DNA of 41,028 bases from Oscillospiraceae bacterium (lineage in GTDB: Bacteria > Bacillota > Clostridia > Oscillospirales > Ruminococcaceae): NCBI GenBank assembly GCA_031253495.1, contig JAIRWC010000026.1, positions 1 through 41,028 on the forward strand, in the 5' to 3' direction. The translations under genes were made by a program, and so were the position numbers. Under the pieces are notes generated by a model, which saw nothing but the letters and a program-made list of their open reading frames with translations, was not told where the DNA came from and searched no databases. Of the stretch, positions 10,118 through 40,171 are shown piece by piece (positions within the stretch are counted from its first letter, which is position 1; the number at the start of each line of letters is the position of its first letter).

Positions 10118-10135
10118 AAAACCACCCCCCGTCCG

Positions 10136-20603: not shown

Positions 20604-20635
20604 GTTAAAATAATAACCAAAGGAGATTGCTCATA

Positions 20636-22291: not shown

Positions 22292-23026
22292 ATGAAAAAA
22301 TTGACAGCGCTTTTAATCTGCGTCGCGATGGCGACGGGCCTTGCCGCGTGTAACTCGGACGAAAATTCGGTGAACCGCGAGGAGCCCCCGCCGAGAACCG
22401 AGAAGTCCGACGAGACGACGACGACCCCGCCGGAAACGACAACCCCGCCCACCGAGAAAGAAACACTGCCGACGGAAACGGACGACGACGCCACTTCCGA
22501 TTATGGCGGCGACGACGACGGCGACGACGATACCGTCGACGGGGACGGGGACAGCGGTTCGCTGGCGCCCGACGAGACAAAGTCGATAAGCACGGATTAT
22601 TATTCCGTTGTGATAACGGGCGAATGTACCTATGAGTTGACCAATTCGATGGGGATGGATATCCTTATGGCGATTTACGGGGAGAACGCGGTGTTTATGG
22701 TTATGACGCTGCCTTTCGACGTGAACACGCTCCTCGAAGGCTCGGGGGTGTCCGAAGGGGATTTTTTGCAGATGATGGCGGACGAAATGGCGGCGGGGAA
22801 TTTCGGGGACGACGCGGTTCTTGTATCGGGCGAATTTGTTCAGATAGACGGCAGGGACGCGTATAAGGGATATTTCGCCACCAATCAGATGGGGGTGGAC
22901 GTAAGCGTTATAATGTATATCTTTTTCGACGACAAAAATATGCACATGATAGCGTTAAGCGATTTGAACGGCGATTATGAGGGGTTGCTTAACGACACGA
23001 TGCAAACGTTCAAACTGAAAGGCTAA
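22292..23026 (+). CDS. Putative lipoprotein with acidic/threonine-rich linker
   Basis: A 244-residue protein with a lipoprotein signal ending in LAAC (Cys20), so it should be lipid-anchored outside the cell. Residues 21-100 are low complexity: Thr/Pro/Glu-rich, then a run of Asp and Gly, probably an extended wall-spanning tether. The C-terminal domain (about 105-244) has a strand-helix pattern (YYSVVITGECTYELTNSMGMDILMAIYGENAVFMVMTLPFD..., DGRDAYKGYFATNQMGVDVSVIMYIFFDD), similar in layout to small cargo- or stress-related lipoproteins; I cannot name the family. It is the last gene of the NfeD-flotillin operon, with AAGGGG before the ATG and a terminator behind it, and so may work in the same microdomain. 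Confidence 0.8.
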   Translation: MKKLTALLICVAMATGLAACNSDENSVNREEPPPRTEKSDETTTTPPETTTPPTEKETLPTETDDDATSDYGGDDDGDDDTVDGDGDSGSLAPDETKSISTDYYSVVITGECTYELTNSMGMDILMAIYGENAVFMVMTLPFDVNTLLEGSGVSEGDFLQMMADEMAAGNFGDDAVLVSGEFVQIDGRDAYKGYFATNQMGVDVSVIMYIFFDDKNMHMIALSDLNGDYEGLLNDTMQTFKLKG

Positions 23027-23033
23027 AAAAACC

Positions 23034-23068
23034 GAAAGGGCTGCCGCGAGAAGCGGCGGCCCTTTTTT
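23034..23068. terminator. Bidirectional terminator between the flotillin operon and the transport operon
   Basis: AGGGC-T-GCCGC pairs with GCGGC-G-GCCCT around a GAGAA loop, followed by six T on the plus strand; on the minus strand the stem is followed by TTTCGG and a further run of T. It closes both convergent operons. Confidence 0.85.
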
Positions 23069-23081
23069 ATCGGGATTTAGG

Positions 23082-24248
23082 TTATCCCACTATACCCGAA
23101 CGCTCTATTCCTTCCACGAAATATTTTTGCAAGAAGACGTACATTATCAGTATCGGGAAAAGCGCCATAAGGCACCCCGCCTGCACCCACACGATGAACT
23201 GCGTGGGCCCGCCCTCCACGCGCCCCGCGTTGAAATACTGCGACATAATCCTCCAAAGGTTGTCTATGGCGAGGGCTATGGTATCGGAACCGTTGAAGAA
23301 CATACCCGAAACGTAGCTGTCGTTCCAGTACCACACGACCGAGAATATGAACACCGTCAGATAAGAGTTCAAGGCGTTCGGTATCATTATACGGACGAAA
23401 GTGGATATGGGGCCGCAGCCGTCAAGGTGCGCCGCGTCTTCCAGCTCTTTGGGCAGCCCGCGGAAAAACTGCCTAAACAGCAGTATGAACAGCCCCGCCC
23501 TTATCCCGTTGCAGAAAAACGCCTGCATAAACAGGGCTATCGGGTTGTCCACGAGGTTAAGCGGACCGCCCCCCAACGCGTTGAAAATACCGAAAATGTC
23601 AAAATATCTGAACTGAACGTACAGCGGAATAAGGATAATCTGCACGGGAACTATCATCTGCAAAATCACTATGCCGAAAAGCAGCCCCCTGCCCCTGAAC
23701 TTAAACCGCGCGAACCCGTACCCCGCTATGGAGCAGGTTACGACTTGAATAACCGAACACCCGACGTTAATCAAAAGCGTGTTGGCGAAAACCTTAGGAT
23801 ACTCCATAGCCTTGAAGGTTTCCACGAAATTTTGCAGTCTGATGGTTTTGGGTATCCACATGACGGACGGGTCGGCGGTTTCAAACTGCGGCTTTACCGA
23901 CGAGGTCGCCATGTACAAAATGGGATAAAGGATAATGAACGAAAGACCTATCAAAATCACATAATGGAAAAAGGGCCACACCGCCTCGGTTATCCTCCGC
24001 CCGAAAATATAGCGGTAATGCTTTTTCTCCGATTCGGAATAATTTTTGAAATTCTTTAATATCTGCCAGTTGCTGATATGGTATTTTTTGCGGATTTCTT
24101 TGTTCCTTTTGTCAATCGCCTTTTGTTCCTTGCGGCTTAACCGTTCCTTGGGCATACCCATATCGAAGTCGGTTTCCCTGCGCGCGGCGGCGGCGGCGGG
24201 TTCGGCTTCGATTGTTTCTTTCGTTTTGTTTTCGTTGTTGTCAGACAT
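23082..24248 (-). CDS. ABC transporter permease, MalG type (second pair)
   Basis: A 388-residue permease of the carbohydrate uptake family (binding-protein-dependent transport, MalG side). After a charged cytoplasmic N-terminus of about 100 residues, far longer than in MalG, come six membrane segments. The loop that contacts the ATPase reads ELEDAAHLDGCGPISTFVRIMIPN, a recognisable EAA motif. It is the last gene of the ten-gene run and is paired with the MalF-like gene upstream (22 bases apart). The ATG at 24248 is preferred over a TTG one codon earlier; AAAGGGGG lies upstream. Its first eight residues, MSDNNENK, are the same as in the paired MalF-like protein. Substrate unknown, probably an oligosaccharide. 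Confidence 0.9.
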   Translation of the reverse strand: MSDNNENKTKETIEAEPAAAAARRETDFDMGMPKERLSRKEQKAIDKRNKEIRKKYHISNWQILKNFKNYSESEKKHYRYIFGRRITEAVWPFFHYVILIGLSFIILYPILYMATSSVKPQFETADPSVMWIPKTIRLQNFVETFKAMEYPKVFANTLLINVGCSVIQVVTCSIAGYGFARFKFRGRGLLFGIVILQMIVPVQIILIPLYVQFRYFDIFGIFNALGGGPLNLVDNPIALFMQAFFCNGIRAGLFILLFRQFFRGLPKELEDAAHLDGCGPISTFVRIMIPNALNSYLTVFIFSVVWYWNDSYVSGMFFNGSDTIALAIDNLWRIMSQYFNAGRVEGGPTQFIVWVQAGCLMALFPILIMYVFLQKYFVEGIERSGIVG

Positions 24249-24270
24249 CAAACACAGCCCCCTTTCCCCG

Positions 24271-25611
24271 TTAATCTACTTGATAGAACACGAACCGCGA
24301 CACAATCGCGACGATTACCGCCAGCGCGACGGCGATAATGGCGAAATATATCCAAGCTATCGCCGCGCTGTAACCGTATTGCAGGTTTTTAACCTGGCTC
24401 ACCACTATTCTCATGACGGCGTTTTCAGAATCGCTGAAAGTGTCTATAACCGTGTATATGAGGTTCGCCAAAATCATGGGGCTTATGGTGGGGAACGATA
24501 TTTTCCAGAAGAACTCCCACCCGGACGCCCCTTCCATCGAAGCGGCTTCTTTCGCGGATACGGGAATTTGCTGGAGCGCCGCCAAGAAAATCAATATTTG
24601 GATACCGGATTTCCAGATTAGGTTGAATATGTCGCTTGTCGCTTCCGACACGAAAGTGGTGAAACCCTCGCTCAGGTTATACAACCCGAGGAACCGCATG
24701 AACCCGTCCACCAGGTCGGTCTTGAACAGGGTGCTGAACTGCGCCGCCCCGCCCGAAGCCCCCTGCGACATAATATCGCCGTTGATAACCGATATTATGG
24801 GACCGGTGGCAATCAAAACGGGCAGGAAGAAAATGGCCCTCATTACCGTTCTTCCCTTGAATTTTTGATTTAACAAAATCGCGATAAACAGGCTGAACAC
24901 CAAAATCAGCAACACCCTCGGAACCATGTTGCCCAAAGACGCGAACAACTCGACCGGGTATTTGCTGTCCGTTAAGAAAGCGTATTTATAATGCGCGAAG
25001 TCGTTCCACCTCAAGTGGATGCCCGCGGAATTCATCCCGTATCTTTCCGCCTGGTCTTCGCTGACGATTGTCGTGTCGTTCAGCGAATAATTGACGGACT
25101 GCCCCAGCGGGAGTATAAACATATACAGCACGCCTATCAGCCACAACCCGATAAAGCCGTAACCGTACAGCTTTTTCTTCCGCTCGTATGACAGGCGGGT
25201 TCCCGTCGAACACTCGATTTGCCTGCGCTTATGCCTGATTTCATCGTCAAGCTCGGCGCGTTTTTCGCGGCATATTTTTTGTATTTGCTTCTTTTCGGTT
25301 TCGTCGTCGGTCTTGTTTACGGCTTTTTCTTCGTCCCTGTTAAGCTCGGCGTGCTTTTTTTCGGAATACGCTTCAAGTTTTTTCAGGTTTTTTTCAATAA
25401 GGTATTTGCGGCGCTCCTCGAACCTTTCTTGCGCGAGCGCCTCTTTTTTCGCCTTTTCCTCGAGTTTTAACGCTTCGGCCTTCGCCTTTTCCTCGAGTTT
25501 TAACGCCTCGGTTTTTTCGGCTGCGGCGAGCGTTTCCGCCTCGGTTTTTTCCGGCGGTGCCTTGACGGCGGGTTCTTCTTTTACGTTTTTGTTTTCGTTG
25601 TTATCCGACAT
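24271..25611 (-). CDS. ABC transporter permease, MalF type, with long charged N-terminus (second pair)
   Basis: A 446-residue MalF-like permease. The first 155 or so residues are a highly charged, probably coiled-coil region with internal repeats (EALKLEEKAKAEALKLEEK), unlike normal MalF; six membrane segments follow. The EAA loop reads AKEAASMEGASGWEFFWKISFPT. The gene starts inside the end of the DUF5696 gene (11-base overlap) with GGGGAGGT as ribosome-binding site, so the two are translationally coupled. Together with the MalG-like protein downstream it should form one import channel. Both proteins begin MSDNNENK, which suggests that the N-termini were copied from one gene to the other. 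No ATPase of the MsmK/MalK type is encoded in the window. Confidence 0.9.
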   Translation of the reverse strand: MSDNNENKNVKEEPAVKAPPEKTEAETLAAAEKTEALKLEEKAKAEALKLEEKAKKEALAQERFEERRKYLIEKNLKKLEAYSEKKHAELNRDEEKAVNKTDDETEKKQIQKICREKRAELDDEIRHKRRQIECSTGTRLSYERKKKLYGYGFIGLWLIGVLYMFILPLGQSVNYSLNDTTIVSEDQAERYGMNSAGIHLRWNDFAHYKYAFLTDSKYPVELFASLGNMVPRVLLILVFSLFIAILLNQKFKGRTVMRAIFFLPVLIATGPIISVINGDIMSQGASGGAAQFSTLFKTDLVDGFMRFLGLYNLSEGFTTFVSEATSDIFNLIWKSGIQILIFLAALQQIPVSAKEAASMEGASGWEFFWKISFPTISPMILANLIYTVIDTFSDSENAVMRIVVSQVKNLQYGYSAAIAWIYFAIIAVALAVIVAIVSRFVFYQVD

Positions 25612-28153
25612 CGCCGTACCTCCCCGCTAACCCGTAATCGCCGAAGTCGACGGTCCGCCCGTTCACCTTAAGCTCGCCCGTGTCGGTGTTTACATAAAAC
25701 GTTTTGCCGCCCTCGAAAACCGTTTCGACTTCATAAACCGACAGCCGTTTGTGCCCGATGATTCTTTCGCCGGAAATGTCGGCTATCAAATCCTTGAACA
25801 TAACATACTCGTTTATGGATTTTTCCGTCCAGCCGACGTAATTGGCGTAGAACTTTTTGTTATAGTCGCTGTCCGTGAACTTGCTCGGGTTTTTGTAAAT
25901 AAAATCGTAATGCAGGGGCGTTCCGGCGGAGAGCGCCAACAGCCTCAACGTGTCGGAGTCGGCGCTGGCGTTGAACGCTTTCGCCGAATAGGGGATATAC
26001 CCGTGTATGATTATCTGATAAAGCGGGATGTCGTAATCGAAAATATCATAGTTCGAGGAATACAGGGGAACGTTCGTTATCTCGCTGACGTAAGGCAGGG
26101 CGTAGGCGTTCGCGGACTGCGCGAGTATTGAAATCCCCTCGTCGTTCAGTTTTTTATACCCCTCGGTGAGGATTTGAACCGTATCCCTGCGGTTGAACTG
26201 GGTTCCGCCAAAGGGGTTCTTCCTTGAAAAGTCGCTGTAAAGCAGATAAGTCGCCTTATCCAACGAAACCGACGTTATCCCCTCGTTTTTGAGGGAGGCG
26301 GTCAATTTATCGAAGACGCCGGGGAAATAAAACGGGGAAAGGATAGTCCACGAATCGGCCAAGCCGTCGGGGGTTCCGAACGCGTATTCGTACTTCCTTT
26401 GCGCGGCGTAGGCTTTCGTTACCTGTTTCGAGGAGTTCAGCAGATAGGAATACCCGTTGCCCGACTTATAATATTCCATGAAATTGAAACTCGGGTACAT
26501 CGTGAAATTATTTTGCGAAACATAATCGGAAAGTTCTTTATACTTGCTTTTCCCGCCTAATTTTGACGAATACTGCACGGTCGGCGATATTTCGCGCTTG
26601 ATTCCGGCGGTGTTGAAGTCTTTGAAAGTAACGACGATATCGTCGACGCCGCCGCTCTTAAGCAGGGCGAGAATCTCTTTCGCCTGCCGATAGGTCGTTC
26701 CGTCGGTCTGTAAATCAACGGGGAACCCGCCGATTGAATGGGTTTTAACCGTGCCGCCGTTCAGCGTCAGATAATACGGGGCGTAGCCGTCCTTCGTCTT
26801 TTTGGTTAAGCCCTTGTGTTTTTCCAGATAACCGCGGTAGGCGTCGGCGACGTCGACGTAGTCCAAATCGTCGCCCGCGAGGGGATAGTACCGTATCGCC
26901 AAATCGCCGGTTTTGATTTTCCCCTGTTCATAAATCGAAAGCTCGTTGTTCCTTGTCCCTATATAATAAGAATCCGTGGTGCGGGTTCTGAAGTCGAACC
27001 ACGCCGCGTTATACGAGGTCGCGCTCTGGCGCGAGACGTTCGCTTTGATAATCGCGTTTTCATCGCCTTTTTCGGCTATGGCGAGGAGGGCGTTATCGCC
27101 GCCGTCGCCGCTCGTGTTCTTCCTGACGATGGAATACATGGGAAAATACACCTGCTCGTTTACGGGGGGGGCGAATTTTTGCGAAACCGTGAAATCCCTG
27201 CCGTATACCTGCCCGGTATAGGGGGCGGAGTTCACCTTCTTGTTGTCAAACTCTATTATCGCGCCGGACCCGTCGGGAACGACTATATACCCCTCCTCCC
27301 CTTCCGGCGCCGCGCCGAAGCTGCTCAACACCGAAAGCGTCAGCATCACGCTGGCGTCGTCCTCGCCCCTTTCGGCGGTGATTTTATTCTCAATGATTTT
27401 ATCCTGCGGAATTTCAACCAGCACGCTGTCGCCGTCAAGCGTAACGTCCATCGTGACGGAGGTGTACTTCGACTCGAAATTGAAAGTGAAACTCACGCCG
27501 CCGTCGTTCTTCGACGTCGGTTTAATGACGGTATTGTTCTTGACGGCGCCCCTCGACTGGAAGTTGGCGCTGTCCTTTTTCGAGCGGACGGGCATGGTGG
27601 TGTAGGAAGACGGGTTCCCCGCCTCGAAAGTCAGCGCGGACATCATGTTTTCCCGCTGGGCGCCCTTAGCCACGGAATCGGTCATGGCGTTCACGGGGGA
27701 CGACCACCAAACGAAACCGTTTTTCTTGTTATAGACGGCGAACATGGTCTCGTTGTCGGTATATTCGACGACGTTCTCGACTTCTTCGGTGAGCGGCTGG
27801 TATTTTCCGCTTTCGTCCTGAACCATGACGGGCTTGCCCTCGCCGTCAAGGACGGAAACCGTTTCCCTCACGGTTTTGACGTAATCGGAGGTTTCGACGA
27901 CGTAGAGGATAAAGTTATCGTTTTCCGCGTACGGCTTGGCTTGGCTCAAAACGTCGCTTTCTTTCCTCGTGTGAACCCGTTCCCTCTCGTCGGCGGCGGA
28001 ATCCCCTTCTTCCGTTTCGTCCGCGTTTTCGCCCTCGCCCTCGGAAAGGGCGGTTTCATCCTCCCACTCTTCCGACCGGACGGGCTGCCCGAAAGACGCC
28101 AGGAGCGCCGCCGTCAAGAACGCCGCGATAAGTTTATTCCTTAATTTAATCAT
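25601..28153 (-). CDS. DUF5696-family secreted protein
   Basis: An 850-residue protein with a cleavable signal peptide (about 1-27), an acidic linker, and a large extracellular region that matches DUF5696 proteins: an N-terminal beta-rich part (about 75-400) resembling the beta-sandwich of glycoside hydrolases, then a TIM-barrel-like part (about 450-800; KSGGVDDIVVTFKDFNTAGIK, YPSFNFMEYY, GITSVSLDKATYLLYSDFS, GISILAQSANAYALPYVSEI). The shape suggests glycan binding or hydrolysis, but the activity and catalytic residues are unknown; acidic residues at barrel strand ends are candidates. It is encoded between YIP1 and the second permease pair and overlaps the latter. Start: ATG with AGGGGTG upstream. 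I know of this family only as an uncharacterised one. Confidence 0.82.
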   Translation of the reverse strand: MIKLRNKLIAAFLTAALLASFGQPVRSEEWEDETALSEGEGENADETEEGDSAADERERVHTRKESDVLSQAKPYAENDNFILYVVETSDYVKTVRETVSVLDGEGKPVMVQDESGKYQPLTEEVENVVEYTDNETMFAVYNKKNGFVWWSSPVNAMTDSVAKGAQRENMMSALTFEAGNPSSYTTMPVRSKKDSANFQSRGAVKNNTVIKPTSKNDGGVSFTFNFESKYTSVTMDVTLDGDSVLVEIPQDKIIENKITAERGEDDASVMLTLSVLSSFGAAPEGEEGYIVVPDGSGAIIEFDNKKVNSAPYTGQVYGRDFTVSQKFAPPVNEQVYFPMYSIVRKNTSGDGGDNALLAIAEKGDENAIIKANVSRQSATSYNAAWFDFRTRTTDSYYIGTRNNELSIYEQGKIKTGDLAIRYYPLAGDDLDYVDVADAYRGYLEKHKGLTKKTKDGYAPYYLTLNGGTVKTHSIGGFPVDLQTDGTTYRQAKEILALLKSGGVDDIVVTFKDFNTAGIKREISPTVQYSSKLGGKSKYKELSDYVSQNNFTMYPSFNFMEYYKSGNGYSYLLNSSKQVTKAYAAQRKYEYAFGTPDGLADSWTILSPFYFPGVFDKLTASLKNEGITSVSLDKATYLLYSDFSRKNPFGGTQFNRRDTVQILTEGYKKLNDEGISILAQSANAYALPYVSEITNVPLYSSNYDIFDYDIPLYQIIIHGYIPYSAKAFNASADSDTLRLLALSAGTPLHYDFIYKNPSKFTDSDYNKKFYANYVGWTEKSINEYVMFKDLIADISGERIIGHKRLSVYEVETVFEGGKTFYVNTDTGELKVNGRTVDFGDYGLAGRYGDVG

Positions 28154-28165
28154 AAAATCGCACCC

Positions 28166-28801
28166 CTAACTTACCCTGTACAATATTTCCGTGTAAATCG
28201 TGTAAAAGAACACAAACACCTGCTGAAACAAAACGACCAGCAAAACGGCAAGGAATACGATGACCACCATCGCCGCCAGCGTGAAAAACATCGCGATAAG
28301 GGTTTTCGGCACGGAATACTGGTGTACCGCTTTCATTCCCGAAACCATCAAGGCGAACGACCACCCTATCCCCACGACCGAAATAAACGACAAAAACCCC
28401 TCTTCGGTCTGTAAAAGGACGTTGCTCGCCACCGTGTTAATCACCACCGAAAAGAGGTACGGCACCAAGGCGTAGGCGCTTACGCAGCATATATTGCGCA
28501 TGGTTCCCTCGCCGTTAAAGAGGGTGCACAGCGACCAGTTCGCCACCACCCACGTGAAGAACAGCACGATTGTCGAGGAAACGTACGGCACGACGAAAAA
28601 ATATTTCGTCTGCAGCCGGTTGAATATGAACCCTGTCATTTGGCTTTCAGCCACCGCCGTGAGGAAGAAAAGCAGCACGATTACAAGCGCGACTTTCATA
28701 TTATAGCCTTTTTTCCACCTTAAATCCTCGTATCCCTCGATAGGATGCCGGATAATGTAAAACGGCCACTTCCAGGCGGGTAAATTGATGTCGTATACCA
28801 T
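28166..28801 (-). CDS. YIP1-family membrane protein
   Basis: A 211-residue protein with five hydrophobic segments in the arrangement of the YIP1 (Yip1 domain) family: a soluble start ending PIEGYEDLRWKKGYN, then membrane helices around 37-57, 68-92, 103-128, 132-155 and 168-198. In bacteria these proteins are uncharacterised and often lie beside MalFG-type permease genes, as here, between an NHL-repeat protein and a DUF5696 protein. A role as a membrane scaffold or accessory channel part is inference. The ribosome-binding site is weak: GAAAGGA lies about 17 bases before the ATG, longer than usual, so expression may depend on upstream translation. Confidence 0.82.
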   Translation of the reverse strand: MVYDINLPAWKWPFYIIRHPIEGYEDLRWKKGYNMKVALVIVLLFFLTAVAESQMTGFIFNRLQTKYFFVVPYVSSTIVLFFTWVVANWSLCTLFNGEGTMRNICCVSAYALVPYLFSVVINTVASNVLLQTEEGFLSFISVVGIGWSFALMVSGMKAVHQYSVPKTLIAMFFTLAAMVVIVFLAVLLVVLFQQVFVFFYTIYTEILYRVS

Positions 28802-28842
28802 AGATGCAACGGGCGTCCTTTCCGATGTTCTTCAGCGGCGCG

Positions 28843-30378
28843 TCAGCGCGCCGCCGCCAATTTCGCTTTCTTCCTTTTGCGGCGCTTTAAAAATTTGCTC
28901 AATACGGTGAGAACCACGACGACGATTAAAATCGCCGCTAAAAAATTGTTAAAGTTCTTTCTTATAAAATCTATTCTGAAGTCCTTGAAAGCGCGGTTAT
29001 ACCCGCCGCGGGAGTGCATATGGAAATAATCCAGCGATTCTTTAAACTCGCCCAAACTTAACAGCGCGTTCCCCATGCCGATATACGCCATATAATAATT
29101 GGCGTCGCGGCGGAGGATTTCCTCCCACGGTTCCCTTGACTCGGCGTACAGCCCGCGGTTGAACAGCCCCATCGCCTCGTTCACGAGCATACCGAATTCC
29201 GTGAGCTTATAAACCGTTATGGAGTTTTTAACGCCGTCGAGTATATAAACCTTGTCGTTGTAGGTTTCAATCGCGTTAGGGGTTTTGAAGAGCCCTTTCT
29301 GCTCCCCTATCCCGCCGAAAATGAACATCAGCTCGCCTTCGTAGCTGTACTGGAATATTTTTCCGGAGGTGGCGTCCAACAGGAAAATATCGCCCTTTTT
29401 GTCCACCGCCACGCCGACGATTGAGGACTTGTAGCTTTTGCCGTGGACGTAGGGGGAGTTAAAATCGCCCCATATCATATCGTCGTACCCCTGCTTGGCG
29501 AAAACGTTCCGCCCGGCGGGGTCAAGTTTCTTTAAAACGTCCAAATCCGCGCTCTTGGCTTCGGTAACGGTGTAGATAAAATTGTCGTCGTCGATGGCGA
29601 AGTTGGAAAATTCGACGGGGACGGGGCGCGTGCGCTGTTCCATCTGTTCGCGGGTCAAAATGAACTTGAGAAAATAGTTAAGCATCGTGTTGAAGGTTTT
29701 TTCCACGCGGTTCGCGCCGTAGTAACCGTTGAACGAGCCGTTCTCGGAAAAGACGACGGCCCCCCTCGTAATGGACTTTATACATATATAGACGTTGCCC
29801 GCGTTGTCGACGATTACCTTTTTCGGGTTGAAGGTTACGTTTTGGTCGTAAAGGTTCGACGCGGGGCGGGTATATTCCATCCACACGTCGCCGTCGGCGT
29901 AGCACGCCAAGACGCGCTCGTTGTCATGGTCGGCTATGTAGATTAACGTTTCGCCGTTCCTGTCCTCCGTAACGAAAACGCCCTGCGGCTTGTTCAAAGA
30001 CGTGTAGTTCCCGATTTTCTGTTCGTCCAACCGGAAATCCTCGCCGTATCTGAAAGTCTTCATCTCGCGGACGTTCTGAAAGTCGGAATCGCAGATGACC
30101 AAACGGCTGTTCCCCGTGTCGGCGATATAGATTTCGCCCGTTTTATCGTAGACGAAAAGGTCTGACGGATTCTTCAGCCCGTCGGCGATTTTCAAATCCG
30201 CGCCCGTTACCACCCTGTCGACGATATAACCGTTCTGCACGGGATAGGTTTCCGCCCACCAGTCGTAATCGTAGGCGACGTAAGGCTCGTCGGCGGAAAC
30301 GAGCGCGGCGACCGTCCCCGCCGCGATTACCGCCGCCGTAAACGCCGATATAAGAATTTTAACCCTTTTTTTTATCAT
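28843..30378 (-). CDS. NHL-repeat/TPR membrane protein
   Basis: A 511-residue protein with an N-terminal signal or anchor (about 9-28), an extracellular beta-propeller of NHL-type repeats (about 60-395; LKNPSDLFVYDKTGEIYIADTGNSRLVI, LNKPQGVFVTEDRNGETLIYIADHDNERVL), a short TPR-like pair (about 410-465; ANYYMAYIGMGNALLSLGEFKESLDYF) and a C-terminal membrane helix (about 478-497) with a basic tail. It is probably anchored at both ends with the propeller outside, suited to hold or sense a polymer. Its start codon lies at the end of a 4-copy tandem repeat of ribosome-binding site plus ATG, so its translation may be controlled by small upstream frames. It belongs to the DUF5696/permease cluster. 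Confidence 0.82.
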   Translation of the reverse strand: MIKKRVKILISAFTAAVIAAGTVAALVSADEPYVAYDYDWWAETYPVQNGYIVDRVVTGADLKIADGLKNPSDLFVYDKTGEIYIADTGNSRLVICDSDFQNVREMKTFRYGEDFRLDEQKIGNYTSLNKPQGVFVTEDRNGETLIYIADHDNERVLACYADGDVWMEYTRPASNLYDQNVTFNPKKVIVDNAGNVYICIKSITRGAVVFSENGSFNGYYGANRVEKTFNTMLNYFLKFILTREQMEQRTRPVPVEFSNFAIDDDNFIYTVTEAKSADLDVLKKLDPAGRNVFAKQGYDDMIWGDFNSPYVHGKSYKSSIVGVAVDKKGDIFLLDATSGKIFQYSYEGELMFIFGGIGEQKGLFKTPNAIETYNDKVYILDGVKNSITVYKLTEFGMLVNEAMGLFNRGLYAESREPWEEILRRDANYYMAYIGMGNALLSLGEFKESLDYFHMHSRGGYNRAFKDFRIDFIRKNFNNFLAAILIVVVVLTVLSKFLKRRKRKKAKLAAAR

Positions 30379-30452
30379 AAAACCCGCACCCCCGTCATAA
30401 AACCCGCACCCCCGTCATAAAGCCCGCACCCTTCATAAAGCCCGCACCCCGT
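30376..30452 (-). repeat. Four tandem copies of a ribosome-binding-site/start-codon unit
   Basis: The entire space between the MalG-like gene and the NHL gene consists of four head-to-tail units (30376-30395, 30396-30415, 30416-30433, 30434-30452; 20, 20, 18 and 19 bases). On the coding strand each unit is CGGGGGTGCGGGTTTTATGA or a close variant, with a G-rich ribosome-binding site and an ATG. The first ATG of the NHL gene is the last copy. From the neighbouring copies, short frames coding MTGVRVL end in TTATGA, so the stop overlaps the next start by two bases. Confidence 0.85.
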
Positions 30453-31318
30453 CAGTCTTTCAGGCCGCTTTGCGCCATAGTTTCGATTACGTTGCTTTGG
30501 CAGAACACGAATATCGTCATCGGCGGCACCATAATGAAAACCGAAGCCGCCGCCGCTATCCCCATACGCTGGATACCCGAAAGTTTTATCTGTTCCATAA
30601 CCGTCGGAATGGGCTTTAACGCCTCGTTGTAAATGAAAGAATAGCCCGTCATCTGCCACGCGCCGTTAAAGGCGAAGATAATCAGCGTTATCCAAGCGGG
30701 CTTTACGTTGGGCATGACGACCTGCCAGCAAATGCGCATATGCCCCGCGCCGTCAAGCTGCGCCGCCTCAATCATCGAATCGTGGATTTGCCCCATGAAC
30801 TGCCGCATAAAGAACAGCGAGAGCGGCGTCGCGATAAAGGGCAGGGTAATCGCGAAATAGGTGTTAATCATCCCGAGCTTCGCCATTACCAAATACACCA
30901 TTACGAAAGTTACGGTGGACTGGAAAAGCAGGGATATTTCGATAATCTTGTTGAGAATCTTTATTCCGGGGGCCCTCACCTTCGCCAGCACGTAAGCCGC
31001 CGACGACGCGAACATGAGCTGAGACACGGTTATTACGACGGTTACGAACACCGAGTTAAACAAATAACGGGAAAACGGCACCCACATATTCCCCGCGACT
31101 TGAAACAGCTCGGTATAGTTTTGGGTCGTGGGGCGGATGGGATAAAGCCTCGGCGGGAAAAGAAAAAACTCTTCCCTCGGTTTGAGCGACTGCACCACCG
31201 ACAGATATATGGGGAAAAGCATGAAAACCCCCACTATCGCCAAAAGCAGAAAAATCATTATGTCGCCGCCGACGGAACCGCTGTATTTCTTCCTTTTTCC
31301 GATTTTAAACTTAGCCAT
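30452..31318 (-). CDS. ABC transporter permease, MalG type (first pair)
   Basis: A 288-residue sugar-uptake permease of usual MalG length with six membrane segments and the EAA loop DSMIEAAQLDGAGHMRICWQVVMPN. The N-terminal PREEFFLFPPRLYPIRPTTQNY segment is characteristic of MalG-type subunits. The start ATG has AAGGAG 8 bases upstream. It pairs with the MalF-like gene 58 bases upstream. Its stop codon is the first base of the tandem repeat before the NHL gene. With MalF and the solute-binding protein it should form an importer whose substrate is likely a sugar or glycan fragment, judging only by family. Confidence 0.92.
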   Translation of the reverse strand: MAKFKIGKRKKYSGSVGGDIMIFLLLAIVGVFMLFPIYLSVVQSLKPREEFFLFPPRLYPIRPTTQNYTELFQVAGNMWVPFSRYLFNSVFVTVVITVSQLMFASSAAYVLAKVRAPGIKILNKIIEISLLFQSTVTFVMVYLVMAKLGMINTYFAITLPFIATPLSLFFMRQFMGQIHDSMIEAAQLDGAGHMRICWQVVMPNVKPAWITLIIFAFNGAWQMTGYSFIYNEALKPIPTVMEQIKLSGIQRMGIAAAASVFIMVPPMTIFVFCQSNVIETMAQSGLKD

Positions 31319-31376
31319 ACGCCAAACTCCTTATACCGTTTCCCGTTTCAATCGCGTTAAGCGAGAAACAAAGACT

Positions 31377-32354
31377 CTACCCGTCGAGGTATTTTCCGAG
31401 TAACTTTTTTATCCCCCAGTTCGCCAAAAGCATGGACAGGAACAACACGAAACAGATTGCCGAGGCGTAACCCATCTCAAACCGCAGAAAACCGTAGTCG
31501 AAAGCGTGGTTCATAATCGAGTGGGCGCGGTAGTCCGTCGTCGGGAACGCCGTCAGGAACCGCGAAACGTCGCCCGCCGCGAAAGACGTCGTTATCTGTA
31601 TTACCGCCGCGAATAAAAGCTGAGGGCCCATCGCGGGAATGGTTATCATCAAAAGCTCTTGGGCGCGGTTCCTGATTCCCTCGATGGCCCCCGCCTCGTA
31701 CCGTTCGCCGGGGATGCCCTGCAGCCCCGCGCGGATTGCCAAAAAGCCCGTTCCGAGAGAAATCCAAAGCTGAACGACTATAACCACGCCCAAAATATAG
31801 TTGCCGTCGGTCAGCCACTGCCTCGAACCGTTGATAATCCCCAAATCAATCAAGTATGAATTGGCTATGCCGTAGGTGTCGCCGGAAAAGATTAACTGCC
31901 AGGTAGTATACAGGTTCCCCGCCAGCGTGGGAGAATAAAAGATAAAGGTGAAAATCGTCTTCAAATGCCCGGGCAGCTGGTTAATAAACCAAGCGAGCAT
32001 AAAACACATCATGTAGCTCACCGGTCCGGTAATCACCGCGAAAACGAGCGTGTTCTGGATAGAAATGAGGAAAACCTCGTCTTCCATGAGCAGGGTGTAA
32101 AAGTTATTGAACCCCACCCATTTGGGGAACGTTACCATGTTAAAGTTGGTGAACCCCATGGGCAAAGCCATGACGACCGGAACCGCCGTCATCACCAAAA
32201 AGAGGATAAAATACGGCGCTATCATGGCGTAGGCGCTTCTGTGGCGTTTCATCTCTTTCAGCGTATATCTGAACCTGCTGTCTTCCACGCGCTTTTTCTC
32301 GGGTATTAACGGGCTTTTCTGTTTGTCGGGATTTTTTACCACGATTCTTTCCAA
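31377..32354 (-). CDS. ABC transporter permease, MalF type (first pair)
   Basis: A 325-residue permease with a basic N-terminus of about 40 residues and six membrane segments, of the MalF side of carbohydrate importers. The ATPase-contact loop is degenerate: GERYEAGAIEGIRNRAQELLMITIPA (EAGA in place of EAA), while the downstream partner keeps EAA. The start is TTG, with GGGGGT 8 bases upstream. It lies 23 bases after the solute-binding protein gene and 58 before the MalG-like gene. No periplasmic P2-like loop is present, as usual in Gram-positive MalF proteins. Confidence 0.9.
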   Translation of the reverse strand: MERIVVKNPDKQKSPLIPEKKRVEDSRFRYTLKEMKRHRSAYAMIAPYFILFLVMTAVPVVMALPMGFTNFNMVTFPKWVGFNNFYTLLMEDEVFLISIQNTLVFAVITGPVSYMMCFMLAWFINQLPGHLKTIFTFIFYSPTLAGNLYTTWQLIFSGDTYGIANSYLIDLGIINGSRQWLTDGNYILGVVIVVQLWISLGTGFLAIRAGLQGIPGERYEAGAIEGIRNRAQELLMITIPAMGPQLLFAAVIQITTSFAAGDVSRFLTAFPTTDYRAHSIMNHAFDYGFLRFEMGYASAICFVLFLSMLLANWGIKKLLGKYLDG

Positions 32355-32377
32355 AACTTTTTACCCCCGTGTGATGT

Positions 32378-35350
32378 CTAATCGTTTATCCAGCTCGCGA
32401 TTTCCGCGTTTTTACGCGTTATTTCCGCGTTGATGTCCCGGTTATAGCTGCTAATCGCGTAACGCGGCAGCCAGTTGTCGTTCACGACGGCCCTGAACGC
32501 GTTCTTGATATGGCGCGTCGAGGCGTAGTTAGCGGGAATCATCGGTATCTCGACCAACGCGTCGCGCTGTTCGACGAGTTTGCGCAACTCCACCGCCGAC
32601 CATGAAAGGTTTGGCAGCGCGTTCACGTTCGCGGTGTCGAAACGCCCTATGGGCCCTACCAACGCTTCCATCGACCTGCCGAAACGCGTCTGCGTTTCGT
32701 CGGACGTGTACCATTTCAAAAATTCCCAAGCTATGGCTTTGTCCTTGGTTTTATTGAATATCACCGCCCCCATGGAGGAGCTCGAGGCCGCGATGTCAAG
32801 AAACTCGTTCCCGTCGGCGTCTTTGCGGACGGTCCCCGGAACGTGGGTGAAATCCCACAGCCCCTTCAGCTCGGGGGCGGCGGCGTAAATCTGGTTATAG
32901 AAGGTGTACGGCTGGATGACGATGGGCATTTCCCCCGTTCTGAAACGGGTGAACGGGTCGTAGGTCTGCTCGAATTGATAAACGGTATAGAACTTCGTCC
33001 ACATGGTGAAGGCGGCTATGCTTTCCTCGGTGTCGAACATAGTCCTCGTCAGGTCTTCGGTGTAGAAATTTTGCCCGGTCTGAAGCTGGAGCATGGTAAA
33101 CGTTTCGCCCGGCTCAAAAATCGTGCTCGACAGGTTCGACGTCGGGGGGAGCAACCCTATTTCAAGGTAAGCGCGGTTCAAAATCGCAATCGTCTTTACG
33201 AAATCGTCCCACGTCTTCGGCGGTTCCACCCCCAGCTCGTCAAGAATGTCCGTTCTGTAAAACATCACGGGGAAAACCTGCGAAATGGGCAACCCGTAAA
33301 CCCCGCCCCGATAGGTGAAGAATATCGGCAGCTGTTCCGTAAACCTCTTTTCCGCGATTTCCTCATAATCCCGGAAAGTCGTCAAATCCACCGTCAAGTT
33401 TCTCGCGGCAAGCTGAACGGGGAAATCGCCGCCTATGAAGGTCGCCACCTCCGGCCCTTTTCCCGCCAGCGTCGCTTCCAAGATGGAACCCTGCACAAGG
33501 TTGATTGTTACGGGGGTGTCCTCGTGCTTCAGATTGAAGTCGTTGTCCACGAGCTCTTTTACAAGCAACGCCTGGTCGCGCCCCAAGCCGACCCACACGT
33601 TGATGCCCTTCCCGTCGTCGAGTTTGGTGTAATCGTTGAAGAAAGAGCCTATGAACGCCCTCCACCCGAACACCAACTCTTCAAAGAAATTGGCCCTCTC
33701 TCTGCCGAACTTCTCGTGGACCGTCGCGATTTCGACATAATCTATCTCAAGCGGCTGAAAACTCTTTTCCCTCATCCACGCCGAAAGGGCCGAAATGTTG
33801 TCCTTGAGCGTCCTTCGCATCATCGGGATTTGGTCGGGCTTGTTCACGCAGCGTTTCAGAATGACCGCCATCGTCTCCAGCGTGGACGCTTCCGAACCGG
33901 TGGAGGAATATCTTTCCACCCGCGCCTTCTCGGCGTAAAGCTGCGCTATTATATCCTCGAACGTGGGCAAAAGCTCGGGTATTTGTTTATCGACGTAATA
34001 GGGGTTGAACTCGTCGGGGTTAGGTCCCGTTATCATCAATATGCGCCTGTAATAATAGTTGAGGGTGTACACGATTTCCTCAAGCCTTTGCATGGTTTCC
34101 CCTATTTCCCCGGGGACCGCCTCCAACGTGATACGGTGGGTTCCGCTCTTCAGGAATATATATATGTCGTCGCCGTTTTCGTCGACTAAGTTCTGGCGGT
34201 ACCACCTCGGGCTGTATTTGAACTGCTGGCAGTTAAACTCCGCCACGGGCACCTCCCCGTCAATCAAGACGCGGCGGTTGGAATAAAATCCCCTCATCAT
34301 ATTTTGCTTTACCCGCGCCGAAAACCGATAATACCCGTCGTTTTGCACGGTAAATTCCCACGTCGCCGACTGTCCCGCCTTCGCCCAGGTTCCGTTTGAG
34401 CCCATGGTGTTATAACGCATTTTTACGGGGTGGCTGGGGCTGACCAAATACGTCGCCCTGTCATAGGTGGGCACAAGCTCGGACGACGACTTGTAAAGGG
34501 GAGTCTGCCCCTCCAACAGTATGGTGCTCGAACCTATTTCGTTAGGCACGATGGGGTTAAGCTCGGGGGTGGAATTTATCTGCTCTTCCGTCGGCTTTAC
34601 CTCGGAATAGGGGGTAAGCTCGGGATAATTTTTAAAGGTTATGGATTTGAACACGGTTTTTACTTTTATTCCCTCGACCGTAAGGGTATGGCGCCCTTTC
34701 TCAAAATAAAAGAAATACGGTTCGTTGAAAAGCCCCTCCTTATCCTTTACGGGGTAGACCATCCAAGTGTCAAATTCCACCTGCAACGGCAAAATCTCGT
34801 TGTCGTTCTTGTCCTTGCTTATGGAGCCGTCGTTTTTCCACAGACGGTCAAGCTCTATGTTCTTCGCGGCGGAAAAGGGATACTCCCCGTCAATCAGAAG
34901 CCCGACGTCGATGGAAATGCTCCCCCCCGATATCGGGTGGTAGTAAAACTCCATGTTATATATGCCGCTCGTTTTCACGTCGAAAACATAATTGACGCGC
35001 CCCAAGTCGTTTTCCCATAAAAGGCAGTCGTTTACCGACATGTGGTTTCGCCTCGCCACCTGCGGGTATTCCCCGAAGTCCGAATCCGGCAGCAGTTCGT
35101 CGTAATCGACCGCTTCTATATAAATTTCTTCCGAAGGGCGCGGCTCGCCCTTGTGTTTTTCATAATAATACTGGTATAAGTCCGAACGGGTGGAACCGCC
35201 CATTATGCCTTCGTTCACGTCGCCGACGACCGCCTCGCCGCCGCCCCCTCCTTGCGCGAAAACCGTAAACGCCGGACAGACGCAAGTAACGAACACCGTT
35301 CCGGACACAAACAGCGCCGCCGCTCTTTTTAACGCTCGAAAATGCCTCAT
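32378..35350 (-). CDS. Very large extracellular solute-binding protein with carbohydrate-binding-like N-terminal modules
   Basis: A 990-residue secreted protein, about twice the usual size for family-1 solute-binding proteins. After a signal peptide (about 1-33, cleavage after VFA likely; no lipobox) come two beta-sandwich-like regions (about 45-240 and 270-430) with strands resembling carbohydrate-binding modules (SGIYNMEFYYHP, NDGYYRFSARVKQN, SGTHRITLEAVP), a helical segment (about 430-580) and a C-terminal periplasmic-binding fold (about 585-985; KGPEVATFIGGDFPVQLAARN, GLPISQVFPVMFYRTDILDELGVEPPKTWDDFVKT). It is the only solute-binding protein for two permease pairs. The ATG at 35350 has CGGAGGA upstream and fits the signal peptide better than an in-frame TTG 24 bases earlier. 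Being without a lipid anchor it may bind another wall component. Confidence 0.88.
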   Translation of the reverse strand: MRHFRALKRAAALFVSGTVFVTCVCPAFTVFAQGGGGGEAVVGDVNEGIMGGSTRSDLYQYYYEKHKGEPRPSEEIYIEAVDYDELLPDSDFGEYPQVARRNHMSVNDCLLWENDLGRVNYVFDVKTSGIYNMEFYYHPISGGSISIDVGLLIDGEYPFSAAKNIELDRLWKNDGSISKDKNDNEILPLQVEFDTWMVYPVKDKEGLFNEPYFFYFEKGRHTLTVEGIKVKTVFKSITFKNYPELTPYSEVKPTEEQINSTPELNPIVPNEIGSSTILLEGQTPLYKSSSELVPTYDRATYLVSPSHPVKMRYNTMGSNGTWAKAGQSATWEFTVQNDGYYRFSARVKQNMMRGFYSNRRVLIDGEVPVAEFNCQQFKYSPRWYRQNLVDENGDDIYIFLKSGTHRITLEAVPGEIGETMQRLEEIVYTLNYYYRRILMITGPNPDEFNPYYVDKQIPELLPTFEDIIAQLYAEKARVERYSSTGSEASTLETMAVILKRCVNKPDQIPMMRRTLKDNISALSAWMREKSFQPLEIDYVEIATVHEKFGRERANFFEELVFGWRAFIGSFFNDYTKLDDGKGINVWVGLGRDQALLVKELVDNDFNLKHEDTPVTINLVQGSILEATLAGKGPEVATFIGGDFPVQLAARNLTVDLTTFRDYEEIAEKRFTEQLPIFFTYRGGVYGLPISQVFPVMFYRTDILDELGVEPPKTWDDFVKTIAILNRAYLEIGLLPPTSNLSSTIFEPGETFTMLQLQTGQNFYTEDLTRTMFDTEESIAAFTMWTKFYTVYQFEQTYDPFTRFRTGEMPIVIQPYTFYNQIYAAAPELKGLWDFTHVPGTVRKDADGNEFLDIAASSSSMGAVIFNKTKDKAIAWEFLKWYTSDETQTRFGRSMEALVGPIGRFDTANVNALPNLSWSAVELRKLVEQRDALVEIPMIPANYASTRHIKNAFRAVVNDNWLPRYAISSYNRDINAEITRKNAEIASWIND

Positions 35351-35370
35351 AAAAAAGGGTCCTCCGTTTA

Positions 35371-36321
35371 TCAAGGGTTGCGGGGCAGAATAATTATCCT
35401 GTCCCCGTCCAACTCGACTTTTACTTTGTCGCCGCCTTTTATTCCCAAAGAAGCGAGGTATTCTTTCGGGATTTGCAATCTGCCCGCCCTGTCGAAAACG
35501 GCCAATTCCTCGTGCGCCCCGCCGATTTCCGGCGGCGCGCTCTCCGCGCCGGCCAGTTCCTCCAACGAAACGGCGTCAATCTTTTTGCGAATAAACTCGG
35601 ATGAGGTCTTGCCGTCCCTTATCGCGACGACGCGGTCGATTTCTTTTGAAAGGTTTACGTCGTGCGTAACTATGATAACGGTAACGCCGGTTTTTCTGTT
35701 AAGCGCCCGAAACGCCTCGAGAACCGACTTCGCCGTTTTGGAATCCACGGAACCCGTCGGTTCGTCCGCCAAAAGCAGCTTCGGGTTCCCCGACAAGGCG
35801 ACGGCAATCGCCGCCCTTTGCTGTTCCCCGCCGGAAAGCTGTCCGGGCAGCGAGCCTTTTTTATGGGAAATCCCCGCCATTTCAAGCGATTCTTCCGCCC
35901 GCCTTCTCCTGTCGTCGCCGAACCCCGAAAGCAACAGGGGCAGTTCCGCGTTTTGCAGAACGGTCAGATAAGGGACGAGATTCCTCGCGGAGTTCTGCCA
36001 TACGAAACCGACGGAAACGCGTTTATACCGCGTAAGCTCTTCGTCGCCGAACTTCAGCATATCGCGCCCGTCCACAAAAAGCGAACCGGCCGTCGGCACG
36101 TCCAAGCCGCCCAACAAGTTAAGCAGGGTGGACTTGCCGGAACCCGACGAGCCGACGATACCTATCAACTCGCCCCTGTTCACGGTTAAATCAAGCCCCT
36201 GCAGAGCCATAACCTCAACGGACGGAAAGCGTTTGCCGCCCTTTTTCTTGTATATCTTAACGAGGTTGTCGCACCGCACCATAACGTTTTCGGGCGGCGC
36301 GAGCAATACTTTCTTCGGCAT
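35371..36321 (-). CDS. ABC transporter ATPase (LolD/MacB type) with C-terminal AbrB-like domain
   Basis: A 316-residue ATPase. Residues 12-240 are a complete nucleotide-binding domain: Walker A GSSGSGKST (57-65), Q-loop in FVWQN, signature LSGGEQQR (162-169), Walker B LLLADEPTG (182-190) and the switch His in TTH-like VTHD (His220). It is closest to the LolD/MacB/FtsE branch, not to MalK/MsmK. A linker and then an AbrB/SpoVT/MazE-type hairpin domain follow (about 272-314; AVFDRAGRLQIPKEYLASLGIKGGDKVKVELDGDRIIILP). Such domains normally bind DNA or dimerise. It starts 2 bases after the other ATPase gene ends and lies 20 bases before the solute-binding protein gene, so it belongs to the same operon. 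No FtsX/MacB permease is encoded nearby. Confidence 0.88.
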   Translation of the reverse strand: MPKKVLLAPPENVMVRCDNLVKIYKKKGGKRFPSVEVMALQGLDLTVNRGELIGIVGSSGSGKSTLLNLLGGLDVPTAGSLFVDGRDMLKFGDEELTRYKRVSVGFVWQNSARNLVPYLTVLQNAELPLLLSGFGDDRRRRAEESLEMAGISHKKGSLPGQLSGGEQQRAAIAVALSGNPKLLLADEPTGSVDSKTAKSVLEAFRALNRKTGVTVIIVTHDVNLSKEIDRVVAIRDGKTSSEFIRKKIDAVSLEELAGAESAPPEIGGAHEELAVFDRAGRLQIPKEYLASLGIKGGDKVKVELDGDRIIILPRNP

Positions 36322-36323
36322 TG

Positions 36324-37022
36324 TTACCTCTGAACGTCAACCGACGTGATTTCACCGTCTTCCAGCGTGTATGTAACGTCGGCGGATTCCATCATGGCCT
36401 CGTCGTGGGTCGTCATCACTATCGCGCGACCGAACTCGCCCTCTTTTACCAAATCGCGGAAAAGCCTCATAACCGCGAGCCCGGTAACCGTATCCAACTC
36501 GGCGGTCGGCTCATCCGCGAAAATCACCTTCGGGTTATGGCAAATCGCGCGGGCAATCGCCACCCTTTGCTGTTCCCCGCCCGAAAGCTCGGCGGGGCGA
36601 TGCCCCGAACGCTTTTCAAGACCCACGCGCGCCAAACATTCCGAAACGCGCCGCGCCCTTTCCCCCGCCGGAACGCCCGCCAGCCTCAACGCCAACTCCA
36701 CGTTCTCGAAAGCGGTCATGCTCCCGATTAAAGCCACCGACTGGAACACGAACGCCATCTCGTAACGGCGCAACCTATCCCTTTTGGCTTCGGAAAGGGC
36801 GGTTATATCCTCGCCGCCGAACATAACCGAACCTTCCGTCGGCATATCCAACGCGCCCAGAATATTGACGAGGGTAGTCTTCCCCGAGCCGGAACGCCCC
36901 CTGAAACAAACGACCCGCCCTTCCTCGACGTCCGCGCTGACGCCGGAAAGCGCGCGGACGGCGCCCGTCCTGCCCGCGGCAAATTCTTTCGATATATTCC
37001 GCGCGGCGAGTATAACGGCCAT
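36324..37022 (-). CDS. ABC transporter ATPase, LolD/MacB type
   Basis: A 232-residue stand-alone nucleotide-binding subunit: Walker A GRSGSGKTT (42-50), Q-loop FVFQS (Gln94), signature LSGGEQQR (146-153), Walker B VIFADEPTA (166-174), D-loop ELDT and H-loop MTTHD (His206). The FRGRSGSGKTTLVNILGALDMPTEG and RRYEMAFVFQSVALIGSMTAFENVELALRL segments place it in the LolD/MacB/lipoprotein-export group. It is the first gene of the ten-gene transport operon, behind a consensus promoter, and is followed at once by a second ATPase of the same group; the two probably form a heterodimer. Whether they power the MalFG-type permeases in the same operon is an open question. Confidence 0.92.
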   Translation of the reverse strand: MAVILAARNISKEFAAGRTGAVRALSGVSADVEEGRVVCFRGRSGSGKTTLVNILGALDMPTEGSVMFGGEDITALSEAKRDRLRRYEMAFVFQSVALIGSMTAFENVELALRLAGVPAGERARRVSECLARVGLEKRSGHRPAELSGGEQQRVAIARAICHNPKVIFADEPTAELDTVTGLAVMRLFRDLVKEGEFGRAIVMTTHDEAMMESADVTYTLEDGEITSVDVQR

Positions 37023-37061: not shown

Positions 37062-37090
37062 ATTATAACAAAGCGAAAGTGCTTTGTCAA
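37062..37090 (-). promoter_or_regulatory. Consensus promoter of the ten-gene transport operon
   Basis: On the minus strand a perfect TTGACA (37085-37090) and perfect TATAAT (37062-37067) are separated by 17 bases, the best promoter in the window; the start would be near 37055, about 33 bases before the first ATPase ATG. The promoter lies in the 109-base space behind the helicase-like gene. Confidence 0.9.
37068..37087. promoter_or_regulatory. Dyad inside the transport-operon promoter
   Basis: ACAAAGCGAAAGTGCTTTGT: 7-bp perfect inverted repeats (ACAAAGC and GCTTTGT) around a 6-base centre. It fills the -10/-35 spacer and part of the -35 box, where a bound repressor would shut the promoter. 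No regulator gene for it is seen in the window. Confidence 0.6.
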
Positions 37091-40151: not shown

Positions 40152-40171
40152 GCTTTTGACCCCCTCGCGTC

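Follow-up and report, generated by a model that had tools for sequence, protein, structure and literature searches.

Among described transporters, the closest to the locus reported here are the CUT1 importers powered by a multitask MalK/MsmX ATPase, such as the Bacillus subtilis MsmX systems, in which a solute-binding protein (SBP) and MalF/MalG permeases with EAA loops are combined with an ATPase encoded outside the operon (PMC7658222, in the part of that paper covered). Here, we analysed a 41,028-nt stretch of DNA from an Oscillospiraceae bacterium (contig JAIRWC010000026.1; the whole stretch is hereafter the window), on the minus strand of which, at 23082-37022, a ten-gene operon resembles the CUT1 systems in its SBP and permeases, and probably in its ATPase, and differs from them in having two permease pairs, a 998-residue SBP with a part resembling a carbohydrate-binding module (CBM), and three further proteins of the NHL, YIP1 and DUF5696 types. 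Judging by its sequence, the system is an uncharacterised but widespread variant of the CUT1 importers, in which two permease pairs are joined by three unusual proteins of the surface or membrane. To our knowledge, NHL, YIP1 and DUF5696 proteins are part of no described CUT1 system.

The first two genes of the operon recall the MacAB and LolCDE transporters, built on FtsX-fold permeases: they encode LolD/FtsE/MacB-type ATPases, and an FtsX permease with an HlyD-like lipoprotein is encoded in trans. Here, however, the ATPases are two unlike proteins, one with a MazE/AbrB-like tail, and they head a sugar-importer operon. DUF5696 shares profile homology with GH101, with the GH129 enzyme NagBb and with DagB, a GH129-like 3,6-anhydro-D-galactosidase, whereas the catalytic acids of these enzymes are not conserved in it. 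In other Bacillota, glycoside hydrolase (GH) genes, regulators and extra SBPs stand beside the same set of genes, as in Gram-positive polysaccharide utilisation loci, whereas the window operon contains neither a GH nor a regulator.

An eight-gene module conserved in Bacillota

Eight of the ten genes, encoding the giant SBP, the permeases MalF1 and MalG1, the NHL propeller, the YIP1 membrane protein, DUF5696, and the permeases MalF2 and MalG2, constitute a conserved Bacillota module. We fetched 99 distinct stretches around chosen DUF5696 matches, a selection from all matches, labelled their genes with profiles built from the window's own proteins, and excluded two stretches (L145 and L151) in which DUF5696, owing to the placement of the stretch, lies outside the fetched part. 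The order SBP-MalF1-MalG1-NHL(-YIP1)-DUF5696-MalF2-MalG2 is kept on one strand, intervening other genes being allowed, in 78 of the remaining 97 loci, 73 of them with every label and five with one label missing or split. A partial module is present in a further 16 loci, some at contig ends and some with the SBP half located downstream (for example L137, L141 and L144), and DUF5696 stands alone in three. NHL and YIP1 form one polypeptide in 51 of the 99 fetched loci and two polypeptides in 38. The first-pass annotation of the window had envisaged a glycan-type import machine of all ten genes, centred on DUF5696 and including NHL, YIP1 and two MalFG pairs, and had proposed gene-order conservation as a check; for the eight genes this order extends far outside the genus, but the two LolD-like ATPases that the annotation counted in do not belong to the conserved set.

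DUF5696 is present in 161 of the 295 genomes of the order (153 above the family cut-off and 144 at E<1e-50) and in 46 of 398 genomes sampled across the phylum, where 39 matches exceed the family cut-off and the 37 strong ones were counted (dropped: G300, G301, G365, G420, G527, G544, G545, G594 and G616). Across these 398 genomes, the N-terminal 600 residues of the giant SBP found 48 matches, of which 39 are strong and were counted (dropped: G023, G301, G348, G373, G386, G420, G450, G645 and G665), and all 37 strong DUF5696 carriers lie within these 39. By these conservation counts, the eight-gene set goes far beyond chance. Two genomes (G397 and G447) carry the giant SBP with no DUF5696 match, which counts against an eight-gene unit. 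No DUF5696 relatives were found in viral_contigs.

The module also occurs in the same order on the Butyrivibrio fibrisolvens plasmid pNP243, together with GH43, a histidine kinase, a response regulator and two more SBPs, and in Paenibacillus cellulosilyticus, where ugpC, the first gene of the operon, directly precedes the giant SBP. In the latter genome, the module is immediately followed by genes for two more SBPs and for several LLM-class flavin-dependent oxidoreductases (L247:20126-29349). Although the module is common in Bacillota, our literature search, in which most subscription journals were not covered, found no paper naming DUF5696. Searches combining NHL or YIP1 with sugar transporters or permeases returned nothing on the module, and those on LolD with sugar permeases, on GH129 pseudoenzymes and on AbrB with ABC or FtsX proteins returned nothing on the system; a Clostridium cellulovorans proteome study (PMC4441647) does not mention NHL or YIP1 in the parts covered.

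In the window, the ten open reading frames lie on one strand with gaps or overlaps of -11 to +73 nt, behind a single consensus promoter and ahead of a terminator-like hairpin, all as the first-pass annotation had described them, and the ten-gene operon is real. Its features, in the direction of transcription, are as follows.

37062..37090, minus strand: sigma-70 promoter, TTGACA-17-TATAAT with TG before the -10 element, matching the consensus at 12/12 positions.
36324..37022, minus strand: LolD1, LolD/MacB-type ABC ATPase, probably half of an ATPase pair for a separate FtsX-type transporter.
35371..36321, minus strand: LolD2, LolD/MacB-type ABC ATPase with a C-terminal MazE/AbrB-like tail, the partner of LolD1.
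32378..35374, minus strand: giant SBP with an N-terminal part containing a CBM35-like domain (residues ~310-406), a coiled linker and a C-terminal SBP fold; core.
31377..32354, minus strand: MalF1 permease, EAA motif EAGAIEG; core.
30452..31318, minus strand: MalG1 permease, EAA motif EAAQLDG; core.
28843..30378, minus strand: NHL propeller with TPR, an N-terminus resembling a signal sequence and a single hydrophobic segment at the C-terminal end; core.
28166..28801, minus strand: YIP1-domain membrane protein with five hydrophobic segments; core.
25601..28153, minus strand: DUF5696 protein, presumably secreted, GH101/GH129/DagB-like, probably a non-catalytic glycan receptor; core.
24271..25611, minus strand: MalF2 permease with a charged N-terminus of ~150 residues, EAA motif EAASMEG; core.
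23082..24251, minus strand: MalG2 permease, EAA motif EDAAHLDG; core.
23025..23065, minus strand: hairpin resembling a terminator, which closes the operon and may work in both directions; recognised by eye, with a scanner listing on the plus strand.

The promoter lies directly upstream of LolD1 and is the sole 12/12 site; the other 13 listed sigma-70 sites score 9 and are uninformative, because the 14 sites found in the window compare with 10.5 expected. Beyond the MalG2 stop, the minus strand reads, by eye, as a G+C-rich hairpin that runs into a T-rich tail; the terminator scanner lists the stem at the operon end on the plus strand only, and its terminator count is not above chance. Pfam assigns both ATPases to ABC_tran, recognises NHL, Yip1 (4e-16) and DUF5696 (4.5e-148), and finds BPD_transp_1 in MalG1, MalG2 and MalF2, the last with 25.6 bits, slightly below the 26.4 cut-off. 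MalF1 has no Pfam match and only weak NCBIfam matches, to PhnU2-, UgpA-, PotB- and MalF-type models. The assembly, in which the window is contig C15, comprises 1.67 Mb and is 98% complete; of the named relatives found, an Oscillospiraceae metagenome-assembled genome comes closest, with 78% identity over the best DUF5696 segment.

Several neighbouring genes deserve mention. Upstream of the promoter (37135-41017) lie three co-directional genes, the middle one encoding a 498-residue Hsp70-like protein, and the proteins on both sides of it have no Pfam match. On the other side of the operon, 20627-22258 encodes a 544-residue SPFH/Band 7 protein in which internal repeats of the QSEALRR(Q/E)KEAEA type were seen by eye, and at 8939-11545 a DHHW/AlgX-like gene adjoins an MBOAT gene, an adjacency that is a pattern of polysaccharide O-acetylation.

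The LolD-like pair and an FtsX-type transporter

The best NCBIfam scores of LolD1 and LolD2 fall to LolD/FtsE/MacB-type models, and as both miss the cut-off of the LolD equivalog (195.3 and 204.9 bits compared with 307.75), we call them LolD-like rather than LolD. The C-terminal tail of LolD2 is MazE/AbrB-like (PF04014, 2.1e-7); LolD2-type ATPases with such a tail (in the window, 35371-36321) are kept in relatives beside FtsX-type permeases. The pair stands outside the conserved core and most likely serves a different transporter that is encoded elsewhere, its partner probably being an FtsX-fold permease.

One basis of this assignment is co-occurrence. Across the 119 genomes of the window's family, strong matches were found to the LolD2 tail in 19, to DUF5696 in 37 and to the 935-residue FtsX-type permease in 20. 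LolD2 and the FtsX permease coincide in 19 genomes; LolD2 never occurs without the permease, and the permease occurs once without LolD2 (1/100). With DUF5696, by contrast, LolD2 coincides in only 12 of its 19 genomes, seven having LolD2 alone and 25 DUF5696 alone (25/100 of the genomes lacking LolD2), so that 25 of the 37 module carriers in the family are without the pair. The counts omit weak matches, namely nine of 46 for DUF5696 (G191, G703, G704, G714, G743, G758, G760, G772 and G774, with E from 1e-3 to 1e-16; five were scanned, and four of these also match GH101 or DUF6259 models), four of 23 for the LolD2 tail (G700, G727, G741 and G746) and four of 24 for the FtsX permease (G695, G727, G768 and G780). 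G749 was scored as lacking DUF5696, though on a short contig its LolD2 adjoins part of a giant SBP gene.

Gene neighbourhoods point in the same direction. In five genomes that carry the pair without the module (L200 and L203-L206), the FtsX permease directly precedes LolD1-LolD2, with PF02687 confirmed on three of the permeases. Strong FtsX permeases are present in 29 of 33 chosen genomes, all 29 of which carry LolD, and were not found in four LolD-free module carriers (G201, G688, G793 and G705). In the window's own genome, the FtsX-type permease is encoded on a contig separate from the operon (G000:C40), and the lipoprotein adjoining it has an HlyD_3 match (3.4e-7); a 326-359-residue lipoprotein-like protein is encoded by the gene preceding the permease in 10/10 loci examined. 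A single branch separates the operon LolD2s from the FtsX-linked ones (support 81/86; 92% of 200 bootstrap trees), which makes a single relocation the simplest history. We also considered whether module carriers had lost the FtsX permease, a loss that would favour LolD as the MalFG motor, and rejected this, as the permease is present.

Outside the family, no LolD1/LolD2 pair was found before the SBP in the fetched loci. ABC open reading frames near the module there (e.g. L059 and L063) were considered as candidates and rejected, with at most 298 bits for LolD2 and at most 79 for LolD1; by eye, they resemble ABC-F, UvrA, exporter or generic ATPases and have no LolD1-type partner, and the pairs within the family score at least 322 bits where complete. 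Five same-genus loci encode ABC proteins of 565-647 residues upstream of LolD1, one of which resembles ABC-F by eye.

Several points weigh against separating the pair from the importer. The association counts, both those above and those for MalK and the module below, ignore phylogeny; the pair stands at the operon head in the operon copies of its group; and in the window the end of LolD2 and the beginning of the SBP gene share 4 nt. The head position and the overlap suggest some functional link between LolD and the importer. The pair might serve the FtsX transporter and the importer alike, or the two transporters might share a substrate or a surface structure and be co-expressed for that reason. 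Such coupling would suit both the constant operon position of the pair across the group and the three genomes (G258, G273 and G744) whose operon is closely followed, on its own strand, by the lipoprotein and FtsX genes, but the sequences gave no hint of a second ATPase partner, and the FtsX gene of the window's genome lies on another contig; we regard this alternative as possible, though unlikely.

The DUF5696 protein, the solute-binding proteins and the substrate

A 47-sequence DUF5696 profile searched against the PDB matched DagB (5opq, 3.9e-13) and NagBb (5wzn, 3.6e-6), with DagB matched at its N-terminal and C-terminal parts as well as at the barrel, and such profile matches indicate that DUF5696 is homologous to the GH101/GH129/DagB-type glycosidases. 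According to the part of PMC5698469 covered, DagB consists of a beta-sandwich, a TIM barrel and an Ig-like domain, mutation of D486, E517, E531 or D202 inactivates the enzyme, and D486 corresponds to D435 of NagBb. The hydrolase-like fold proposed in the first-pass annotation is thus borne out as far as homology goes, but hydrolysis itself is doubtful, because the GH101/GH129 catalytic acids are not conserved.

The comparison with DUF5696 was made through six ~640-residue proteins (L209-L214) that fall under DUF5696, GH101 or DUF6259 models and keep the motifs YLDVF and SSEE in 6/6 cases. These motifs we take to be the strand-4 nucleophile and the strand-5 acid/base, respectively, by the GH101/GH129 pattern. 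The six form a distinct GH101/GH129-like family that the DUF5696 Pfam model also catches. Over the barrel, they can be aligned with DUF5696 at hhalign probabilities of 99.6% and 97.1%, yet the strand-4 nucleophile position of DUF5696 holds D or E in only 16 of 110 sequences in the strand-end register, or in 23 of 109 in the hhalign register, and positions 679-682, aligned with SSEE, hold D or E in 50, 9, 0 and 1 of 110. Even within the window's genus, residue 632 varies between D, T and N. DUF5696 is probably not a hydrolase of the GH101/GH129 type, and a role as a glycan receptor seems probable instead.

Here, too, there are points on the other side. The DUF5696 register at barrel strand 4 is uncertain, and D641 would need a third register; acids are well conserved elsewhere, D294 being D in 103 of 110 sequences, D320 in 98 and D641 in 85; and the AlphaFold model of DUF5696, built from three sequences, was too poor to be used (pLDDT 32.7). 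The conservation of these three residues makes unusual catalysis possible, and DUF5696 might be a working glycosidase or lyase, possibly of an unusual kind, that shortens the glycan prior to import. Its clear relationship to DagB and NagBb, and over the barrel to GH101/GH129-like proteins, would agree with this, but the loss of the nucleophile and acid/base positions just described, together with the 25 of 110 sequences without D at 641, leads us to regard an active enzyme as doubtful.

The giant SBP, with 998 residues, matches SBP_bac_8 at residues 622-898 (1.9e-24), and its SBP fold extends over ~570-900, with PDB profile matches to sugar SBPs (best 3e-34). Residues 310-406 match residues 434-520 of cycloisomaltooligosaccharide glucanotransferase (2.5e-10), a segment that we take to be the CBM35 of that enzyme. 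No second SBP was found within the window operon. On contig C5 of the same genome, however, three paralogous orphan SBP lipoproteins, 66-68% identical (L248:4558-11292), reach 133-146 bits with an SBP-like family whose members neighbour the module (22 proteins in 20 fetched loci), compared with 87 bits for an SBP on contig C9 that has its own permeases. No PF00528 permease was found on C5, with a model that also misses MalF1. By this resemblance, the C5 orphans are candidates for feeding MalF2G2. The three lipoprotein genes are accompanied by a SASA-type carbohydrate esterase.

As to the substrate, a scan of ten hand-picked module neighbours, which is not an enrichment test, identified GH26 in five loci (L047, L048, L049, L127 and L132), the first two of them from genus g9 of the window's family, as well as CBM65, GH35, GH2, melibiase and one CotH kinase; pectate-lyase-like, GH30-like and GH3-like neighbours were noted by eye only. 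More generally, the module sits in other Bacillota with GH genes, regulators and extra SBPs, some of them recognised by eye. The GH-type neighbours in relatives point to glycans of the plant cell wall, with mannan the foremost candidate in the family, and we infer that plant cell-wall oligosaccharides are the substrate. Against this, no GH was found among the scanned flanking genes of the window, and no regulator either. The module might instead recycle the cell's own wall or exopolysaccharide, a role that its single copy in the window's genome, the strong consensus promoter and the same lack of a scanned flanking regulator or GH would suit; but with GH26, GH43, GH2, GH35 and melibiase genes nearby in other Bacillota, and GH26 in two family members, we consider it improbable.

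The motor and the proposed importer

The likely motor of the permeases is a MalK-type ATPase acting in trans, which fits better than the LolD pair; we infer the partnership from gene content. A MalK OB domain occurs in 65 of 68 chosen genomes, and the three without it lack the module, G170 having no DUF5696 match, and G209 and G237 having a DUF5696-type gene alone (L089 and L093). In the family, 35 of the 37 module carriers encode a MalK-type ATPase, and the two others are genomes that are 70% and 75% complete. The window's genome has one such ATPase, of 380 residues (G000:C45), and none in the window operon. A long-OB subtype of MalK is found in 33 of the 37 module carriers of the family compared with 6 of the 82 other genomes, and, among LolD2 carriers having MalK, in 11/11 with the module and 0/6 without it; in genus g2, a long-OB MalK is encoded a few genes before LolD1 (L182). 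In P. cellulosilyticus, an ATPase gene of the MalK type, ugpC, heads the operon itself.

Two points weigh against MalK as the motor: what sets the long-OB subtype apart is solely how long its profile match is (>=195 nt), and the C45 protein keeps, by hand count, only two of four multitask residues (D77 and R104, with Q at 110 and 154). In the part of PMC7658222 covered, these four residues were tested as part of the MsmX multitask signature.

The permeases bear on the same question through their EAA motifs, which are alike in LolD-bearing and LolD-free loci: within the family, the EAA glycine is present in all four permeases in 20/20 loci with and 6/6 without LolD, and in other loci in 70/70, 67/67, 78/80 and 79/79 cases per permease. 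An EAA-loop change in LolD-bearing loci was looked for, and none was seen. The charged N-terminal extensions of MalF2 and MalG2 reach ~150 and ~95 residues ahead of the first hydrophobic segment; same-genus loci likewise encode long versions of both, and most of those in other loci are shorter.

A ten-part machine in which a LolD1/LolD2 heterodimer replaces MalK and drives both MalFG pairs, as the first-pass annotation implied by counting the ATPases in, would suit the tight co-transcription seen in the 4-nt overlap and the fixed position of the pair in the operon copies of its group, but we consider it very improbable, and demoted it from first choice, given that LolD2 tracks FtsX far better than DUF5696, that most family module carriers and all fetched loci outside the family are without the pair, that MalK is nearly universal among carriers, and that the EAA motifs are indifferent to LolD.

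Instead, we favour, as reasonably probable, an eight-gene CUT1-type glycan importer with MalK in trans and a LolD pair originating from a MacAB-like transporter. The core would take up fragments of complex carbohydrates through two MalFG-like permease pairs. The giant SBP would capture the glycan via its CBM-like part and hand an oligosaccharide to MalF1G1, whereas a second, ordinary lipoprotein SBP, which adjoins the module in many other bacteria and is probably represented here by the three C5 orphan paralogues, would deliver a related ligand to MalF2G2. At the cell surface, DUF5696, with a glycosidase fold minus the usual catalytic acids, would grip the glycan chain, the importer parts may be anchored or scaffolded by the NHL propeller and the YIP1 membrane protein, and a MalK/MsmX-type ATPase encoded elsewhere would power both permease pairs. 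The LolD pair would belong to a MacAB-like transporter, with the HlyD-type lipoprotein and the 935-residue FtsX-type permease encoded elsewhere; it may have arrived, probably in a single event, in an ancestor shared by some members of the family, and would now be co-expressed with the importer.

More tentatively, DUF5696 might found a class of surface glycan receptors derived from a dead GH101/GH129-type glycosidase and operating in a double-permease complex with a propeller-YIP1 scaffold. Such a complex would correspond to SusCD in a Gram-positive setting: the polysaccharide end would be held by DUF5696 together with the SBP and its CBM while the two MalFG channels import different fragments, and in part of one family the complex would be wired to a MacAB-like transporter via an operon shared with the ATPases of the latter.

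If the favoured eight-gene reading is true, it would show which genes of an unnamed set work together. It would also caution that operon neighbours, such as the LolD-like ATPases, may be misread as parts of the same transporter, and it would give DUF5696 and a bacterial YIP1 protein a testable role.

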